The notes under the pieces: model-generated
What the model saw: the letters and a program-made list of their open reading frames with translations, nothing else
Databases searched by the model: none
Told to the model about the DNA's origin: nothing
DNA from: Rhizobium sp. GN54
GTDB taxonomy: Bacteria > Pseudomonadota > Alphaproteobacteria > Rhizobiales > Rhizobiaceae
NCBI RefSeq assembly: GCF_021026345.1
Contig: NZ_JAJNCZ010000001.1
Span: 682,001 to 746,000, forward strand
Direction of reading: 5' to 3'
Length of the DNA: 64,000 nt
Shown here: positions 4,838 through 31,232 of the stretch, one piece after another
Position numbering within the stretch: position 1 is the first letter of the stretch
Layout: every line of letters begins with the position of its first letter
Position numbers and translations under genes: made by a program

Positions 4838-5896
4838 ATGAACATCAAGAGCCTGCTTCTTGGCTCCGCTGCGGCGCTCGCAGCAGTTTCCGGCGCACAG
4901 GCTGCCGACGCTATCGTCGCTGCCGAGCCGGAGCCGATGGAATACGTTCGCGTCTGCGACGCGTTCGGCACCGGCTACTTCTACATCCCCGGCACCGAGA
5001 CCTGCCTGAAGATCGGCGGCTACGTCCGCGTCGACGTTTCCGGCGGTGACGTCAACGGCCAGGACACCTTCCCCGGTGGCGGCGGCGACTCCTGGCGGAG
5101 CCGGACCCGTGTAGCCCTGCGTCTGTCGACGGCGACCGACACCGAATACGGTGCGCTGAAGACCTTCACCGAAGTTCGCTTCGATCGTGACGACAACAGC
5201 GATTCCGACACCTACCTGCAGGAAGGCTACATCGAACTCGGCGGCTTCCTGGTCGGTTACACCGACTCGGCCTATTCGAGCTTCACCGGCTTCGGCAACA
5301 ACAACATCAACGACTACTATGACGTTGACTACGGTGACTTCCAGGCCACGCAGCTGACCTACAAGTACGACACGGGCGCCGGCTTCACCGCCGTCATCTC
5401 GCTCGAAGACGGCAGCGACAGCAACGACGACGGCTACAACACCTACACCGACTACGACAGCTACGTACCCAACGTTATCGCCGGTCTCGGCTACAACGGC
5501 GGCGTATGGCAGCTCCGCGCGGTCGGCGCCTACGACGATTACGCCGAGGAAGGCGCAATCAAGGTTCGCGGCGACGTGACCTTCGGCCCCGTCTCGCTCT
5601 TCGCAATGGGCGGCTGGAACACGGACGGCGACGTCCGGAACAAGTACGCTCGCTGGGACGGCGACTGGGCTGTCTGGCTCGGCGGCACCTACACGCTGAC
5701 CGAAAAGGCGACCATCAACGCCGGTGTCAACTTCGACGACGGTGAAAACGTCGAAGCAGCGCTGAACGTTGCCTACCAGGTCGTTCCGGGCTTCACGATC
5801 ATCCCGGAACTCAACTACCGCAGCGACATGGACGAGAAGGCCGGCGCGGACGCAGAAGACTGGGGCGGCGTCATCCGCTTCCAGCGCAACTTCTAA
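4838..5896 (+). CDS. Porin (Omp2b/RopA family), paralogue 2
   Basis: Outer-membrane porin of 352 residues. A signal peptide (MNIKSLLLGSAAALAAVSGA then QA|AD) precedes the two-cysteine plug motif (VCDAFGTGYFYIPGTETCLK), a series of amphipathic strands and the terminal Phe (FQRNF). The start at 4838 is set by GACTGGAGGTC, a leader shared almost base for base with paralogue 3; the first 50 or so codons of both genes are also nearly identical, which suggests recent duplication or gene conversion. The external loops (around residues 110-200) differ strongly between the copies, as expected if the pores differ in selectivity or phage sensitivity. A strong terminator follows. Confidence 0.95.
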   Translation: MNIKSLLLGSAAALAAVSGAQAADAIVAAEPEPMEYVRVCDAFGTGYFYIPGTETCLKIGGYVRVDVSGGDVNGQDTFPGGGGDSWRSRTRVALRLSTATDTEYGALKTFTEVRFDRDDNSDSDTYLQEGYIELGGFLVGYTDSAYSSFTGFGNNNINDYYDVDYGDFQATQLTYKYDTGAGFTAVISLEDGSDSNDDGYNTYTDYDSYVPNVIAGLGYNGGVWQLRAVGAYDDYAEEGAIKVRGDVTFGPVSLFAMGGWNTDGDVRNKYARWDGDWAVWLGGTYTLTEKATINAGVNFDDGENVEAALNVAYQVVPGFTIIPELNYRSDMDEKAGADAEDWGGVIRFQRNF

Positions 5897-21151: not shown

Positions 21152-22123
21152 TCACTGCTGCTGCGGACGCAGGAGTGGCGCCGTCTCGACGATCCGGTTC
21201 GTCCAGATGTAACCGGGAAAGGGGGAGGGCAGGGCCGCCACGTCCTCCGGCCAGTCGACGCCGGCATTGGCGTCGCCACCATAGGGGCCGAACACCACCA
21301 CCTCGCTGCCGGCCTCCTGCATGCGCTGCACGAACCGGTTCGGCCAGCCCCACAACAGCCAGGCATAGTTCTGCGGCACCGGCACGATCGTGTCGCGGCA
21401 ACTTTCGGGGACGAAACCGATCCAGCCGGTGGCGAGATAGCCGAGCAGGCAGGATTTGGCCGATGCGGCGGTAAATCCCGACAGGCCGTCGATCTGCGCC
21501 AACGCCGCCTCGGTCGGCTCGCCGCCGCCATAGACGGCCCAGATCGCCGGTCGCCAGTCCGGCCGCGCCTGCAGGAGCGCGGCGAGTGCCTCGCCTTCCT
21601 CTGCCCGTCGGCTCTTGAAATTGACGATGAACCGGCCATCCGGAAACGCCTCAAGCACATCGTCGAGCGTCGGCATCAGCCCGACGCCCTTGCCGCGGAA
21701 GGGGAAGGTCTTGCCGCCGTCGGCAGTGTAGCCATAGCCGATGTCGAGCCCCTTGAGCACCGCCATCGAGGTCTCTTCGGTGACGCCCCTGCCGTCCGTT
21801 CGGCAGTCCAGCGTCCAGTCGTGGAAGACGGCGAATTTCTTGTCCGGCGTGAGGTGCACGTCGAGTTCGACGACGTCGGCGCCGGCGTCGAATGCGGCCC
21901 GCATGCTGTCGATGGTGTTTTCCAGATAGGGATTTTCCGGCGGCAGGATCCGTGTCGCGGTGCAGGTGTCGTTGTCGATACCGCCCGGGGAAAAGATCTG
22001 GTGGACGCCACGATGGGCGATGAGCCGCGTCTCGCCCTCCGGCATGTCCGCAATCAGGTTCGAATTGAAGGACCACACGAGGAGGCCGCAGCCGCCGAGG
22101 TACAGAAGGACATTTCGGAACAT
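21152..22123 (-). CDS. Membrane-anchored glycerophosphodiester phosphodiesterase family protein
   Basis: A 323-residue GDPD-family TIM barrel behind one N-terminal hydrophobic segment (VLLYLGGCGLLVWSFNS), so probably periplasmic and anchored or exported. Catalytic landmarks are present: LIAHRGV (His-Arg-Gly), ENT, VVELDVHLTPD (metal-binding Glu/Asp) and the second His in FHDWTLD. Expected reaction: hydrolysis of glycerophosphodiesters to glycerol-3-phosphate and an alcohol. The insert with GIDNDTCTATRI between strand 1 and ENT is longer than in GlpQ and UgpQ, so the substrate may differ. Start 22123 has only a weak site. It converges on era with a 12-base gap. Confidence 0.88.
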   Translation of the reverse strand: MFRNVLLYLGGCGLLVWSFNSNLIADMPEGETRLIAHRGVHQIFSPGGIDNDTCTATRILPPENPYLENTIDSMRAAFDAGADVVELDVHLTPDKKFAVFHDWTLDCRTDGRGVTEETSMAVLKGLDIGYGYTADGGKTFPFRGKGVGLMPTLDDVLEAFPDGRFIVNFKSRRAEEGEALAALLQARPDWRPAIWAVYGGGEPTEAALAQIDGLSGFTAASAKSCLLGYLATGWIGFVPESCRDTIVPVPQNYAWLLWGWPNRFVQRMQEAGSEVVVFGPYGGDANAGVDWPEDVAALPSPFPGYIWTNRIVETAPLLRPQQQ

Positions 22124-22208
22124 CACTCGTCTTTCGTGATCTATGAAACACGCATGACGTGCAGCGCGAATCGGCGAAATTGCGGCAGGTGGCCCGAAAT
22201 CGGCCGCC

Positions 22209-24587
22209 TCATGCCCGGCTAGACTTGCGTCCCTTTGCGGGCGCCTTCGCGCCGGCATTCTCACGCGCCTGTTCGAGCAGCCGCTGCATCGCCCAGATGC
22301 CGAGATCGTCGACGGTGCGCGGCTCGCTGATCAGGTAGCCCTGGTAGAGGTCGCAGCCCGCAGCCGCCAGCAGCGACATCTTGTCCGTCGTGTCGACGCC
22401 CTCGGCCACCACCTGCATGTCCTGCGCGTGGCAGAGCGCGATCAGCGCGCGCAGCGTCGGCAGCGCTGCCGCATTCGTCAGGCTCTCGACGAGCGCCCGG
22501 TCGAGTTTGATCGTCTCGGCCGGATAATCGATGATCTGCTGGACCGAGGTGTAGCCGGCGCCGAAGTCGTCGATGGAGATGCGGAAGCCTTTCGACCGGA
22601 GCATATCGATGTTGCGCTGCGACTGGTCGCCGAGCTTGACGGCGAAGGTCTCGGTCAGCTCGATCTCGATCGAGCGCGCCTCGAGCGTGTGCCTTGCCAG
22701 CGCGTCGCTGAACCGATCGGCGATCGACCGGTTATAGAGCTCCGCCGAGGAGATGTTGATGCAGAGGATGGTCTCCGCACCGAACAGCTGCTTGATCCGG
22801 TGGCAATTGGCCATCGCCGTGTCGATGACCCAGGAATCGATCTTGCTGAACAGGCCGGTGGTTTCCGCGATCGGGATGAACTCGTCCGGCGTGACCCTGC
22901 CGAGCAGGGGCGACGTCCAGCGCAACAGCGCCTCGCAGGCCGTCACCTTGCCGCGGCCGTCGACGATCGGCATGAAGACGAGGTGCATCTCGTCGTCCGG
23001 GTTCATCGCTCGCAGTTCTTCCTCGATCAGCCGCTGCCGCGTCCGCGTCTCGTGCAGCGAGCGCGAATAGCGCGCCGAGCCGTTCTTGCCCTGCGCCTTG
23101 GCCTGGTACATGGCCGCATCCGCATTGGCGAGCAGTTCCGGCAGATCGGCCGCATCCTCCGGGAACACTGCGATCCCGATGCTGGCGGTGACCGGATAGG
23201 ACTGTTCGAGCACCTCGAAGCCGCCGTCGAACAGCCGCACGATCGCCTCGGATATCTCGCTGACGGTGCCGTCGCCCGGATGCGACTGCACCATGATCGC
23301 GAACTCGTCGCCGGACAGACGCGCCACCAGCGCATCCGGCAGCACGCGGCGCTCCGTCACCGCCTTGACGCGCATCTCCAGCCTCGCTGCGAGCGTCGTC
23401 AGCAGCTCGTCGCCGACCTTGTGACCATATTTGTCGTTGACGAACTTGAAGTTGTCGACGTCGATGAAGAGCAGCGTGCAGCCGGCGCTGGAGGCGCGCG
23501 CCACCTCCAGGATCTCGGTGGAGCGGGCATTGAAATGCGCCCGGTTGGAGATGCCGGTCAGCGTGTCGGTCCAGGATGCCGTCCGCACCAGCCCGAAGGA
23601 TTCGACCGCATCGTCGTGAAGCTGCTTCATGTTCATCGAAAGCCGGCCGATCTCGCCGAGCTCCTCGACCGGCATCAGCTCGCTGCGCTGGCCGGACATG
23701 ACGTCGGTCAACTGCCGGTCGAGGCGCGCGATCGGATTGGTGATGAACCGGCGCACCAGCAGCAATACGAGGCCGATGGTGAAGAGGCTGAGGCCGATGG
23801 CGCCGACCGCGAGCAACGCCTTCAGGTTCGTCAGCTTGTCCTCGACATGGCCCTGCTGCGGCGTCAGGCGCGCATAGAGCGCCGGGCCGAGCCTGGCGGT
23901 GGCGGACACGGCCCCCGCTGCCGTCAGGGGATGCGTCGAGATCTCGACCTCGGCACCGTACTCCTGCTCGAGCTTCGCCTTCATTTCGAGGAACTGGCGA
24001 GGACGCACGGCCGTCTGGATCAGGATCGAGCTGGCCTTGGCGCTGGAGACCGGGCGGTTGAAGGTGTGCTGGTCGAGAAATTCCGAATGGACGATCAGCG
24101 GCTCGGCACCCTCCGGCTTCAGATAGGTCCAGTCGGAGAGCTTGGGGCTTTCAAACAGCCGCCGCGCATGCTCGACCTGCACCTTCGGAATTTCCGCGAA
24201 CGGATCGTCGCTGTTCTCGTAGTAGTAGTCGATCGACAGCGGCGGGCGGATGACGGTCAGCGAGACGAAGCGGGTCGGATCCTCCGACAGCGATCTGATG
24301 CTCTGCTGCATCATCACGCCGATGGCGTTCGAGCGGTAGCTGGCATCCGGTTCGTTGACGAACAGCCGCACCGCCGTCCCTTCGACCAGCGAATAGATCA
24401 GGCTCCTGTTCTGCGTCACGTCGTTCTGGAACACCGCGTCGAGCAGGCCCAGCTGCTGCCACAGGCGCGCTCGTTCGAGCGCCCGGATGGAGTCGCTCTG
24501 GCTCATGTAGAGCAGGGTGGCGGCGACGACATAGCCTGCGAGGACGACCGGGAAGATGAGAAGGAAGGCGCGCTTACCGAGTGTCAC
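22209..24587 (-). CDS. Membrane sensor c-di-GMP enzyme: periplasmic domain-HAMP-SGDEF-EAL (MbaA-like layout)
   Basis: The 792 residues read: membrane span 1 (7-27), a periplasmic domain of about 230 residues, membrane span 2 (258-280), HAMP (281-335), GGDEF-type domain (340-505) and EAL domain (525-775). The GGDEF motif is SGDEF (425-429), a variant with reduced or uncertain cyclase activity. The EAL half keeps the key residues: EAL 552-554, Asn611, the ELTE glutamate near 646, Asp673/Asp674 in IDDFGAG, Lys694 in IKLDRA and Glu729 in AEGV, so phosphodiesterase activity is likely. The gene starts 14 bases inside the upstream PotD-like gene, so the two are coupled. This matches MbaA, whose activity is set by a periplasmic polyamine-binding partner. 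Confidence 0.9.
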   Translation of the reverse strand: MTLGKRAFLLIFPVVLAGYVVAATLLYMSQSDSIRALERARLWQQLGLLDAVFQNDVTQNRSLIYSLVEGTAVRLFVNEPDASYRSNAIGVMMQQSIRSLSEDPTRFVSLTVIRPPLSIDYYYENSDDPFAEIPKVQVEHARRLFESPKLSDWTYLKPEGAEPLIVHSEFLDQHTFNRPVSSAKASSILIQTAVRPRQFLEMKAKLEQEYGAEVEISTHPLTAAGAVSATARLGPALYARLTPQQGHVEDKLTNLKALLAVGAIGLSLFTIGLVLLLVRRFITNPIARLDRQLTDVMSGQRSELMPVEELGEIGRLSMNMKQLHDDAVESFGLVRTASWTDTLTGISNRAHFNARSTEILEVARASSAGCTLLFIDVDNFKFVNDKYGHKVGDELLTTLAARLEMRVKAVTERRVLPDALVARLSGDEFAIMVQSHPGDGTVSEISEAIVRLFDGGFEVLEQSYPVTASIGIAVFPEDAADLPELLANADAAMYQAKAQGKNGSARYSRSLHETRTRQRLIEEELRAMNPDDEMHLVFMPIVDGRGKVTACEALLRWTSPLLGRVTPDEFIPIAETTGLFSKIDSWVIDTAMANCHRIKQLFGAETILCINISSAELYNRSIADRFSDALARHTLEARSIEIELTETFAVKLGDQSQRNIDMLRSKGFRISIDDFGAGYTSVQQIIDYPAETIKLDRALVESLTNAAALPTLRALIALCHAQDMQVVAEGVDTTDKMSLLAAAGCDLYQGYLISEPRTVDDLGIWAMQRLLEQARENAGAKAPAKGRKSSRA

Positions 24588-25629
24588 GGAACTGGACCAG
24601 GCTGCTGATGATGCGACGGCGGGATTGCACCGAGGAAACGCTCAGTTCCTCCTGATACTGGCTCTTCGCCAGGATTTCGGGTGCGGTGTAGATTTCGGCG
24701 TTCTCCCGCATGTCGGCGGGGATGAGGTCGAGAGCCGCCCGGTTCGCGGTCGGCATCTTGAGGGCGATGGCGTTGCGCGCCGCACTTTGGGCGCCGGCGA
24801 TGTGGTTCAGGAGATCCGTTGCTGCCTCGCTATGCTTGGAGCGGGTGCTGATCGCCATGCAGTCGAGCCAGAAGAGCGTCCCCTCGGACGGCACGGCATA
24901 GCGCCACAGCCGCTCCTTGCCCGTCATTTCGTTCAGGACGTGCTGGTCGCCGCTGTAGCCGAGCGCCATGTGCACGCCGGGGCCGACATCCGGGTTCTGG
25001 ATCGAGGTGATGACGTAGTCGTAGGTGAGCACGTAGGGCGCCTGCGCCTTCATCGTCTGGAAGGCCTCCCGCAGCGTCGGCTCGTCGTTCGCATTGATCG
25101 ACTTGCCGAGCAGGATCAGCGCCGGCACGAAGGCCTCGTTGTGGTCGTCGAACATGGCGATGTGGCGCCGCAGCGGTTCGCCGGGCTTCATCAGATCGGC
25201 CCAGGAGGTCGGCGCCGTGGCGACGGCGTCCGACCGGTAGAGGACGCCCATGGTTCCCCAGAGATAGGGCACGCCGTAGCCGCCGCAGCGCCTGGTCCAG
25301 CTTTCGTCGTACTCGCTGAGCGAGGGAAGCGTGTCGGGCGAGAGTGCCTTCAGGATGCCGCGGTCGCCGAAGAGTTTGGCGCCGTTCTCGCCGGTGACGA
25401 CGAGATCGATGTCGCTGCTGGGATTGGACAGAACCTCGTCGCGCGCGTCGCCGCTGTCGTAATAGGTCTGGTGGACGTCGATGCCCGTCCGCGCCGTCCA
25501 GTCCGACAGGATCGACGGATCGATATAGGCCTGCCAGATCAGGAGATTGATCGTGCCGGCGGCCTCCGCAGGCGCCGACGTCGACAGGGCGGCCGCCGCT
25601 GCTGCCGCCATCAGCATGGATCTTCGCAT
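24574..25629 (-). CDS. Periplasmic polyamine-type (PotD/NspS-like) substrate-binding protein
   Basis: A 351-residue type-2 periplasmic binding protein. After a signal peptide (MRRSMLMAAAAAAALSTSAPA) come PotD-like elements: INLLIWQAYIDPSILSDWTARTG, DLVVTGENGAKLF, the hinge strand YGVPYLWGTMGVLY, ALGYSGDQHV and SEGTLFWLDCMAI. This is the spermidine/putrescine-binding class. No ABC permease or ATPase gene lies on either side; instead the stop overlaps the start of the membrane SGDEF-EAL gene by 14 bases. I infer a ligand-sensing rather than an uptake role, as for NspS with MbaA. The ligand is not certain: polyamine by family, but related proteins bind other cations. The ribosome site at 25629 is weak. 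Confidence 0.88.
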   Translation of the reverse strand: MRRSMLMAAAAAAALSTSAPAEAAGTINLLIWQAYIDPSILSDWTARTGIDVHQTYYDSGDARDEVLSNPSSDIDLVVTGENGAKLFGDRGILKALSPDTLPSLSEYDESWTRRCGGYGVPYLWGTMGVLYRSDAVATAPTSWADLMKPGEPLRRHIAMFDDHNEAFVPALILLGKSINANDEPTLREAFQTMKAQAPYVLTYDYVITSIQNPDVGPGVHMALGYSGDQHVLNEMTGKERLWRYAVPSEGTLFWLDCMAISTRSKHSEAATDLLNHIAGAQSAARNAIALKMPTANRAALDLIPADMRENAEIYTAPEILAKSQYQEELSVSSVQSRRRIISSLVQFRDTR

Positions 25630-27108: not shown

Positions 27109-27423
27109 TCAGCTCTCGAAGTCGAAGTCATCGTCAATTGGGAGACCCGGCGGTCGCTGCCGCCCGTGCCGTATGGCAAGAATGACGATCGTTGATGCAC
27201 GAATTTCGTAGTCGAACAGATACGAGCCGAGGACGAATCGCCGGACGCCCGGAAAAGGCAGATCATCCGGCGCATGTCCCAATTGGGGAAAGCGCGCCAG
27301 CTCCTGTTGCAGCCGCCTGAGGCTATCGCGAAACTCAAGGGCCGTGCGCGGGCTTCGTGCCATGAGGTACGAAGCTTCCGTCTTCACATAGTCCCTGGCG
27401 TCCGGCGACAGGACGACCTTCAA
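27109..27423 (-). CDS. RelE/ParE-family toxin
   Basis: A 104-residue RelE/ParE-fold protein: VVLSPDARDYVKTEASYL (helix pair), ALEFRDSLRRLQQELARFPQLGHAPDD, VRRFVLGSYLFDYEI and the final strand IVILAIRHGRQRP. The family poisons either mRNA on the ribosome (RelE) or DNA gyrase (ParE); the sequence alone does not tell which. Its start overlaps the antitoxin stop by 4 bases. It converges on cfa. Confidence 0.87.
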   Translation of the reverse strand: MKVVLSPDARDYVKTEASYLMARSPRTALEFRDSLRRLQQELARFPQLGHAPDDLPFPGVRRFVLGSYLFDYEIRASTIVILAIRHGRQRPPGLPIDDDFDFES

Positions 27424-27680
27424 GCAGCCGCACCCTTGATGATCGCATCCAGCTCTTCGATTGCCTCGTCAAGGTCGCTGCCGCGTCCATCGTCGATGTC
27501 CCGGCGGGCTTTTGCCAGCGCAACGATCTCCCGCCCCTCGGCAGCGAGATAGGACTTGAGCGCCCGAACGACGACCCAACTGCGGCTGCGTTCGCAGACG
27601 GCGGCGATCTCCTCGATCTCGGCCAGCACATCCAAGGGCAGACGCATCGTGATCGGATCGGACAATTCCCGTTCTGACAT
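27420..27680 (-). CDS. Ribbon-helix-helix antitoxin
   Basis: An 86-residue CopG/ParD-like antitoxin: an RHH DNA-binding N terminus (SDPITMRLPLDVLAEIEEIAAVCERSRSWVVVRALKSYL) and a toxin-wrapping acidic C terminus (GSDLDEAIEELDAIIKG). ATG at 27680 is fixed by GGAGG eight bases upstream. The 13-base palindrome at 27695-27707 lies directly before that site and should be the autoregulatory operator. Confidence 0.88.
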   Translation of the reverse strand: MSERELSDPITMRLPLDVLAEIEEIAAVCERSRSWVVVRALKSYLAAEGREIVALAKARRDIDDGRGSDLDEAIEELDAIIKGAAA

Positions 27681-27694
27681 CGTTTTTGCCTCCG

Positions 27695-27707
27695 TTTGTA
27701 ATACAAA
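27695..27707. promoter_or_regulatory. Palindromic operator of the RelE/ParE-type toxin-antitoxin operon
   Basis: TTTGTA-A-TACAAA is a perfect 13-base palindrome immediately upstream of the antitoxin Shine-Dalgarno sequence on the minus strand. RHH antitoxins usually bind such sites and repress their own operon; binding here is inferred. Confidence 0.6.
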
Positions 27708-27889
27708 TCTAGTTCGGACCATCCAAATCGTCAAACAGGTCCTTTCCCGGCATTCACTCATAACTGTGGACCCGGCCCGGTCCGGTGATTGGCGGGCGGG
27801 CGGTGGCGCACTATGGTCGCCGCCCGCCGCAGCGTTTGACCGGCAACGGTCGTCATCGTCTGCGCGCAATCATCGCATAGGAGACGTTC

Positions 27890-30338: not shown

Positions 30339-31232
30339 ATGACGATCACGATTTCACGCCGGCAGGCCATGGCCGGCGCACTCTTTGCCATTCCCGCGGT
30401 GTCCGCGCTCTCAGCCGGCGCCAGCGCCGCCGCCGGCGGCAATTTGGAAGCGCGGCTTGCCGAACTGGAGGCCAGGCACGATGGCCGCATCGGCGTTGCC
30501 ATACTAAATCTCGCGACGGGCGCCCGGCTCGGCCACAGAACGGATGAGCGCTTCCTGATGTGCAGCACCTTCAAGGCGCTGTTGGCGGGACATATCCTCG
30601 CCCGGGTGGACCGGGAAGAGGAAACGCTGGACCGGCGTATCGTCGTGCGCGAGGCAGACCTCGTGGACTGGTCGCCGGTAGTGGAGAAGAACGTCGGCGC
30701 AAGAGGCATTTCGATTGCCGAGCTTTGCGAGGCGACGATCACGCTCAGCGACAACGCCGCCGCCAACCTGCTGCTCGCGGCCTCCGGCGGGCCGCAGGCG
30801 GTCACCGGCTTCCTGCGCGGCTTCGGGGACGGGGTGACGCGCCTCGACCGTACGGAGCCGGCCCTCAACTACCACGAGAGCCCGGACGACGAGCGCGACA
30901 CCACGACACCGGCCACGATGGTGGAGACGCTGCGCAAGCTGATCTTCACCGACGTGCTGTCGGCGCGCTCGAAGGCGCAGCTCGCGGCCTGGCTGGTGAT
31001 GAACAAGACGGGCGACACGCGGCTGCGCGCCGGCTTCCCGGCCGACTGGATGACGGCCGACAAGACCGGCACGAACGGCGACAGGGCCGGCAACGCCAAT
31101 GACGTCGCCGTGGCCTGGTCGCCGGATCGCGGCGCCGTCATCGTTGCGGCCTTCTGCGAAATACCGGGCATTTCCGGCGACGAGCGCAATGCCGTCATCG
31201 CCGAGATCGGGCGCATCGCGGCCGAAGTCTGA
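30339..31232 (+). CDS. bla: Class A beta-lactamase
   Basis: A 297-residue serine beta-lactamase exported to the periplasm. It keeps the full catalytic set: STFK (Ser76, Lys79), SDN (137-139), the omega-loop Glu173 in EPALN and KTG (242-244). The N terminus (ISRRQAMAGALFAIPAVSAL) has a twin-arginine start, so export by Tat is likely. A Cys precedes the catalytic Ser, as in some class A enzymes. No LysR-type AmpR regulator adjoins it, so expression is probably constitutive or low. It is on the chromosome among non-mobile genes, which suggests an intrinsic enzyme rather than a recent acquisition. The spectrum cannot be read from sequence. Confidence 0.95.
   Translation: MTITISRRQAMAGALFAIPAVSALSAGASAAAGGNLEARLAELEARHDGRIGVAILNLATGARLGHRTDERFLMCSTFKALLAGHILARVDREEETLDRRIVVREADLVDWSPVVEKNVGARGISIAELCEATITLSDNAAANLLLAASGGPQAVTGFLRGFGDGVTRLDRTEPALNYHESPDDERDTTTPATMVETLRKLIFTDVLSARSKAQLAAWLVMNKTGDTRLRAGFPADWMTADKTGTNGDRAGNANDVAVAWSPDRGAVIVAAFCEIPGISGDERNAVIAEIGRIAAEV

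Follow-up and report, generated by a model that had tools for sequence, protein, structure and literature searches.

Organization of the overlapping gene pair

The window, a 64-kb stretch of DNA from Rhizobium sp. GN54 (G000:C1:682001-746000), carries two overlapping genes that resemble nspS and mbaA, which encode a polyamine-binding protein and a cyclic di-GMP (c-di-GMP) enzyme (Table 1). The product of the first gene, P0001, matched Pfam SBP_bac_8 (1e-24) and showed an alanine-rich N terminus that, judged by eye, resembles a signal peptide. Its closest solved structures by sequence were spermidine/putrescine-binding proteins (8y5h, 5e-31; 7xjm; 1pot), and its score against the NCBIfam PotD model (119 bits) fell far below the equivalog cutoff of 582 bits. 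For its part, the product of the second gene, P0002, matched Pfam EAL (3e-61) and GGDEF (2e-36), with SGDEF at residues 425 to 429 and EAL at residues 552 to 554. Both reading frames were intact.

Table 1. Positions of the gene pair and of other features in the window
Feature	Position	Strand	Description
nspS-like gene (P0001)	24574-25629	-	351 amino acids; secreted PotD-type solute-binding protein
mbaA-like gene (P0002)	22209-24587	-	792 amino acids; GTG start; two-span membrane protein with periplasmic region, HAMP-like, SGDEF, EAL
Overlap of nspS stop and mbaA GTG start	24574-24587	-	14 nucleotides
MbaA periplasmic sensor region	23820-24515	-	approximately residues 27-258; low-confidence model, weakly dCache-like
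Glycerophosphodiester phosphodiesterase gene	21152-22264	-	follows mbaA
ParE toxin-like and ribbon-helix-helix antitoxin-like gene pair	27109-27869	-	adjoins tex
Beta-lactamase family gene	30339-31232	+	adjoins tex; Beta-lactamase2, 3.6e-41

An earlier note on this DNA had described a PotD-class binding protein gene overlapping by 14 bases the gene of a two-span HAMP-SGDEF-EAL membrane protein. The observation is real and is confirmed here: the coordinates and the SBP_bac_8 match agreed with the first part of the description, and the EAL and GGDEF matches with the second, the HAMP match remaining under the Pfam cutoff (15 versus 25 bits). Two hydrophobic spans (approximately residues 1 to 26 and 247 to 281) were found in every one of the 31 relatives' GGDEF-EAL receptors that carried an intact MbaA label, a set to which P0002 itself does not belong but which includes the receptor of locus L009, 94% identical to it. 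The overlap suggests that translation of the two genes is coupled.

Joint occurrence of the two genes

The earlier note had proposed a search for PotD-like and GGDEF-EAL gene pairs in other genomes. Among 247 genomes of the family of the window, its own genome included, the binding protein (profile, E≤1e-60) was found in 27 and the periplasmic region of the receptor (profile, E≤1e-15) in 27, and these were the same 27 genomes; the named carriers were Rhizobiaceae. In all 27 loci the genes were adjacent, and the receptor started inside the binding-protein gene. In the searches at the order and phylum levels, binding-protein matches with E≤1e-40 were considered; the profile, made from rows of alphaproteobacterial origin, favors near relatives and undersamples transporter PotD proteins. 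The order sample (297 genomes) yielded one additional pair, in genome G455, and a score gap, with nothing between 487 and 154 bits. The four other order matches besides the window's own genome (141 to 154 bits) had no MbaA match in their stretches. Considering the 27 family loci plus that of G455, the overlap was 4 nucleotides in 16 of the 28 and 14 nucleotides in 12. Thus, in the genomes sampled, the two genes were found solely as a unit.

Wide flanks were available for 16 of the 27 family loci and for G455, besides the named loci L009 to L018. The era-tex neighborhood of the window was shared only by L009, L010/L131, and L126 to L130. None of the 17 window neighbors tested was seen in the other wide loci, all seven from Sinorhizobium/Ensifer among them, except for a 42% beta-lactamase match in L121. 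The pair thus stays together in different places, and shared synteny alone was rejected as the explanation of its conservation. Among named genomes, the closest one found was that of Mycoplana azooxidifex DSM 100211 (92% identity for NspS, 94% for MbaA, and 94% for era), while identity to the seven Sinorhizobium/Ensifer pairs was 58 to 60% for NspS and 58 to 59% for MbaA. By these identities, the window pair is a Mycoplana-related member, approximately 59% identical to the Sinorhizobium/Ensifer pairs.

A published survey placed the pair in 222 of 16,076 proteobacterial genomes, including Sinorhizobium, Shinella, Ensifer, and Pseudomonas, with overlaps of 3, 13, or 16 bp (PMC9993111), which we take as 4, 14, and 17 nucleotides in our counting. 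Outside the family of the window, an exception to strict pairing is reported for Nautilia profundicola, which would have an mbaA homologue but no nspS (PMC2628731).

Relation to known systems

According to the earlier note, the locus was an NspS-MbaA-like module that had not been described in this lineage. The first part stood, in agreement with the relationship, the gene order, the overlap, the SGDEF motif, the lack of transporter genes, and six of eight ligand contacts. The second did not, because a 2023 paper had already described the Sinorhizobium meliloti pair SMc00991-SMc00992, along with mutants showing biofilm, exopolysaccharide, and motility phenotypes (PMC9993111). The window pair is, therefore, a real conserved module of an already described system and no discovery for rhizobia. 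In S. meliloti strain 1021, the nspS mutant loses the effects of putrescine and spermine on biofilm and exopolysaccharide; the authors treat their nspS mutants as effectively double mutants, and they report that none of the polyamines gave the reciprocal phenotype regulation seen in Vibrio cholerae (PMC9993111). Without such reciprocal regulation in S. meliloti, the V. cholerae output is not simply transferable. In V. cholerae, norspermidine-bound NspS docks and favors synthesis, whereas MbaA breaks down c-di-GMP when spermidine is present or norspermidine is absent (PMC8967002, PMC8079147).

The window pair resembles S. meliloti NspS-MbaA in its gene order, overlap, SGDEF and EAL motifs, two spans, and neighbors unrelated to polyamines or c-di-GMP (PMC9993111). 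Unlike the Sinorhizobium/Ensifer loci, it has a different neighborhood and an overlap of 14 nucleotides instead of 4 (3 in the count of that paper). With V. cholerae NspS-MbaA (VC0704 in the paper), it shares the architecture, SGDEF, overlapping genes, and six of the eight predicted contacts. It differs from it in having G for D90, L for F131, and EAL where the V. cholerae protein has EVL. The V. cholerae partner locus is presumably VC0703. With Escherichia coli PotD and PotF, the window binding protein shares the family and the W32, W254 (PotD), and D256 positions, at 24.8 to 26.5% identity. However, it carries Tyr225-x-x-Asp228 where PotD has Trp-x-x-Ser and PotF has Trp-x-x-Asp, and it falls in a separate tree group, whereas PotD and PotF are encoded with permease and ATPase genes. 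A further likeness is that to LuxP-LuxQ, in which a binding protein acts through a periplasmic tandem-PAS sensor, although the binding protein is of another family and the output is a histidine kinase.

A wider group of receptor-linked PotD-like proteins

In the phylum sample, 39 of 398 genomes gave a binding-protein match, and 43 of the 48 matches listed, other than those of G000 and G054, were examined. The partner was taken as the next downstream gene picked by script, and six loci had no assigned partner. The downstream partners were histidine kinases in 19 loci, GGDEF-EAL proteins in 6, GGDEF-EAL proteins with a degenerate cyclase in 3, and SpoIIE-type phosphatases in 4; a Pot transporter was nearby in 5. 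All 19 kinases matched Pfam HisKA and HATPase, and 16 of them dCache_1 (E≤0.001), while all four phosphatases matched SpoIIE and dCache_1. Among the five dCache_1 scores shown, four were under the Pfam cutoff of 45 bits and one was over it.

A 65-protein tree, built after removal of 9 near-copies and of 5 transporter rows with long branches, was divided by a branch with 100/100 support. On one side lay 53 proteins, namely, all 49 receptor-linked rows plus 4 with unassigned partners, and on the other lay 10 transporter-linked rows plus 2 with unassigned partners. The 53 were split into a GGDEF-EAL-linked group of 30 rows (99/95) and a kinase/phosphatase-linked group of 23 rows (99/97). Window NspS was placed inside the former, apart from the transporter-linked PotD proteins. 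Leaving out the degenerate group, support for the MbaA-linked rows was only 81/78. A quick tree of 79 rows showed the same split (Shimodaira-Hasegawa-like approximate likelihood ratio test, 99, 97, and 97). What is new here is the position of window NspS within a well-supported receptor-linked PotD-like group, the members of whose other half are mainly encoded next to histidine kinases or SpoIIE-type phosphatases. A review describes binding-protein domains as common within GGDEF/EAL proteins (PMC8846402), and no description of the wider group was found in our literature searches, to which, and to the text available in them, this negative is limited.

The sister-group genes lie directly before the kinases (19 loci among L090 to L115) or the phosphatases (L086 to L088 and L097). 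In addition, loci L089, L092, and L095 contain a binding-protein/GGDEF-EAL pair in which the cyclase motif is degenerate, with Asn at the D427 position in all three, and the checked EAL residues are kept; judging from these residues, their receptors are probably phosphodiesterases only.

Sensor regions were compared by profile-profile alignment, and the positive control, in which those of rhizobial MbaA were set against six from other MbaA proteins, gave a probability of 100. Homology between the MbaA and kinase/phosphatase sensors was not shown (score, 25.0; E value, 0.0097; probability, 4), the reversed-sequence control scoring higher (28.3), and homology between the rhizobial MbaA sensors and those of the degenerate-GGDEF receptors was unsupported (probability, 0.1). 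These comparisons thus do not demonstrate that outputs were exchanged on a common sensor domain. It is an evenly balanced proposition that a PotD-derived lineage, with NspS as one of its branches, would have gone from transport to signaling and acquired histidine kinases, SpoIIE-type phosphatases, and c-di-GMP enzymes (MbaA) as outputs, all through dCache-like periplasmic domains, with the rhizobial pocket (G80 and L123) tuned to an amine other than the norspermidine of vibrios.

Proposed mechanism and alternatives

The best explanation of the pair, and one that we regard as very probable from the sequence comparisons, is an NspS-MbaA system that would convert an external amine, through docking, into a c-di-GMP output. 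The binding protein, secreted to the periplasm, would close on a small, positively charged amine, a polyamine being the most likely candidate. In one of its conformational states it would then dock on the periplasmic domain of MbaA, which is probably dCache-like, and docking would turn the cytoplasmic half from degrading c-di-GMP (EAL) toward making it (SGDEF). External amines might thereby set c-di-GMP levels and, through them, exopolysaccharide, biofilm, and motility.

Several points weigh against this explanation. The tie to the S. meliloti and V. cholerae proteins runs through the Sinorhizobium/Ensifer loci and through two bridge proteins (L084 and L085). The periplasmic region of MbaA had no Pfam match at E≤0.01, and its AlphaFold2 model (11 sequences) was of low confidence (mean predicted local distance difference test score, 63.4). 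A fold search with this model gave no PDB match at E≤0.001; its top rows, none of them at that threshold, consisted largely of sensors of the dCache type or related to it (KinD, Mlp24, TlpQ, McpU, and LuxQ), with V. cholerae LuxQ at rank 16. The likeness to dCache sensors is a lead only. Adjacent genes do not always mean a functional link between binding protein and receptor: in Pseudomonas aeruginosa, no interaction of AgtS or AruS with the neighboring receptors was seen. Moreover, SBP_bac_8 proteins for which polyamine binding had been predicted preferred gamma-aminobutyric acid (GABA) or 5-aminovalerate, in the paper that is our main caution on ligand and linkage (PMC11113362). Finally, two of the eight V. 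cholerae NspS residues predicted as norspermidine contacts (PMC9993111) are changed in window NspS (D90 to G80 and F131 to L123).

These P. aeruginosa ligands raise the alternative of a binding-protein/receptor c-di-GMP module with a nonpolyamine ligand, such as GABA, 5-aminovalerate, or another amine. The contact positions bear on it in both directions. They were compared through an alignment bridged by L084 and L085, two proteins from the phylum of the window, which are 29 to 30% identical to window NspS and in which all eight contact residues are present at constant spacing. In the rhizobial branch (26 proteins), G occupied the D90 position in 21 and L the F131 position in 22. However, the other six positions kept in the window (W32, D61, Y225, D228, W254, and D256) were kept in the branch, D61 in 25 proteins and the rest in all 26, and without nspS, S. 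meliloti no longer responds to putrescine and spermine (PMC9993111). We judge a nonpolyamine ligand unlikely.

In the NspS-MbaA system that we favor, the two differing positions in most of the rhizobial branch suggest that the ligand of window NspS may not be norspermidine. All eight contact residues were called conserved in S. meliloti (PMC9993111), unlike the aligned Sinorhizobium protein L011, which has G and L at the D90 and F131 positions; the count or alignment of that paper may differ from ours. Asp was present at position 228 in 58 of 58 receptor-linked rows versus 5 of 15 transporter rows. Similarly, position 225 was Tyr or Phe in all 58 receptor-linked rows and Trp in 11 of the 15 transporter rows.

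As to local amines, the genome contains a single match to NspC-like carboxynorspermidine decarboxylase (G000:C23:193071-194153), with 392 bits against an NCBIfam cutoff of 409. Since this match lies just under the cutoff, production of triamines by the organism is plausible. In S. meliloti, the polyamines produced are reported to include spermidine and norspermidine as well as putrescine and homospermidine (PMC13293326).

A second alternative, that the receptor is only a phosphodiesterase with a regulatory SGDEF domain, is comparably doubtful. Ser as the first motif residue would suit it, as would the activity of the purified cytoplasmic domain of V. cholerae MbaA, which in vitro was phosphodiesterase only (PMC8079147). 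Nevertheless, the SGDEF motif is required in vivo in V. cholerae, where the evidence favors c-di-GMP synthesis (PMC8079147), and D427 and E428 were kept in all 32 MbaA rows, as was K381, and D376 in 31. The motif itself read SGDEF in 30 rows and AGDEF in 2. On the EAL side, E552, N611, E643, and D674, the window counterparts, by motif, of four metal-binding residues (PMC9993111), were kept in 31 of the 32 rows. The exception, in G088 (locus L121, from position 5492), is a rhizobial MbaA-like receptor of 512 amino acids that ends after its AGDEF cyclase domain, with no EAL match in the stretch. The allosteric RxxD slot, at what we take to be its location in window MbaA, reads LPDA. RxxD is also absent from S. 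meliloti and V. cholerae MbaA (PMC9993111). The genome contains 25 GGDEF places in all.

Regarding transport, the earlier note had seen no ABC transporter genes nearby, in concordance with tblastn searches in which E. coli PotA, PotB, PotC, PotG, PotH, and PotI had no match in the window at E≤1e-5. Similarly, no Pot permease or ATPase match was found at E≤1e-8 at any of the receptor-linked loci among L009 to L018, L080 to L115, and L120 to L136. The window pair thus lacks the cognate permease and ATPase genes that define a PotABCD transporter. That the binding protein is an orphan transporter part feeding a distant Pot-type permease, its adjacency to the GGDEF-EAL gene being incidental, is highly improbable: the genome does hold several Pot-type transporters, but each of the eight other PotD-like places listed in it (E≤0.001) has its own permease and ATPase matches within the surrounding 10 to 11 kb, and, with the profile thresholds given above, none of the 27 carriers in the sample of 247 genomes has only one of the two genes, the pair remaining together in unrelated neighborhoods.

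Genomic neighborhood

At lower coordinates on the forward strand, the translations indicated rsh, acpS, lepB, rnc, and era, with recO further on. The glycerophosphodiester phosphodiesterase gene that follows mbaA was rejected as a third member of the module; it is present in L010, and in L009 era follows instead. The ParE-like/antitoxin-like gene pair is nearly whole in L010, and L009 keeps an antitoxin fragment alone. The beta-lactamase is, in our reading, of class A.

Implications

Taken as an NspS-MbaA system, the window pair adds Mycoplana-related bacteria to the range of a c-di-GMP system for amine sensing that has been little studied, and its changed contact positions supply residue-level predictions on ligand specificity. 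The most interesting by-products are this changed pocket of the rhizobial members and the wider receptor-linked PotD-like group, whose kinase and phosphatase neighbors make the change from transport to signaling testable.

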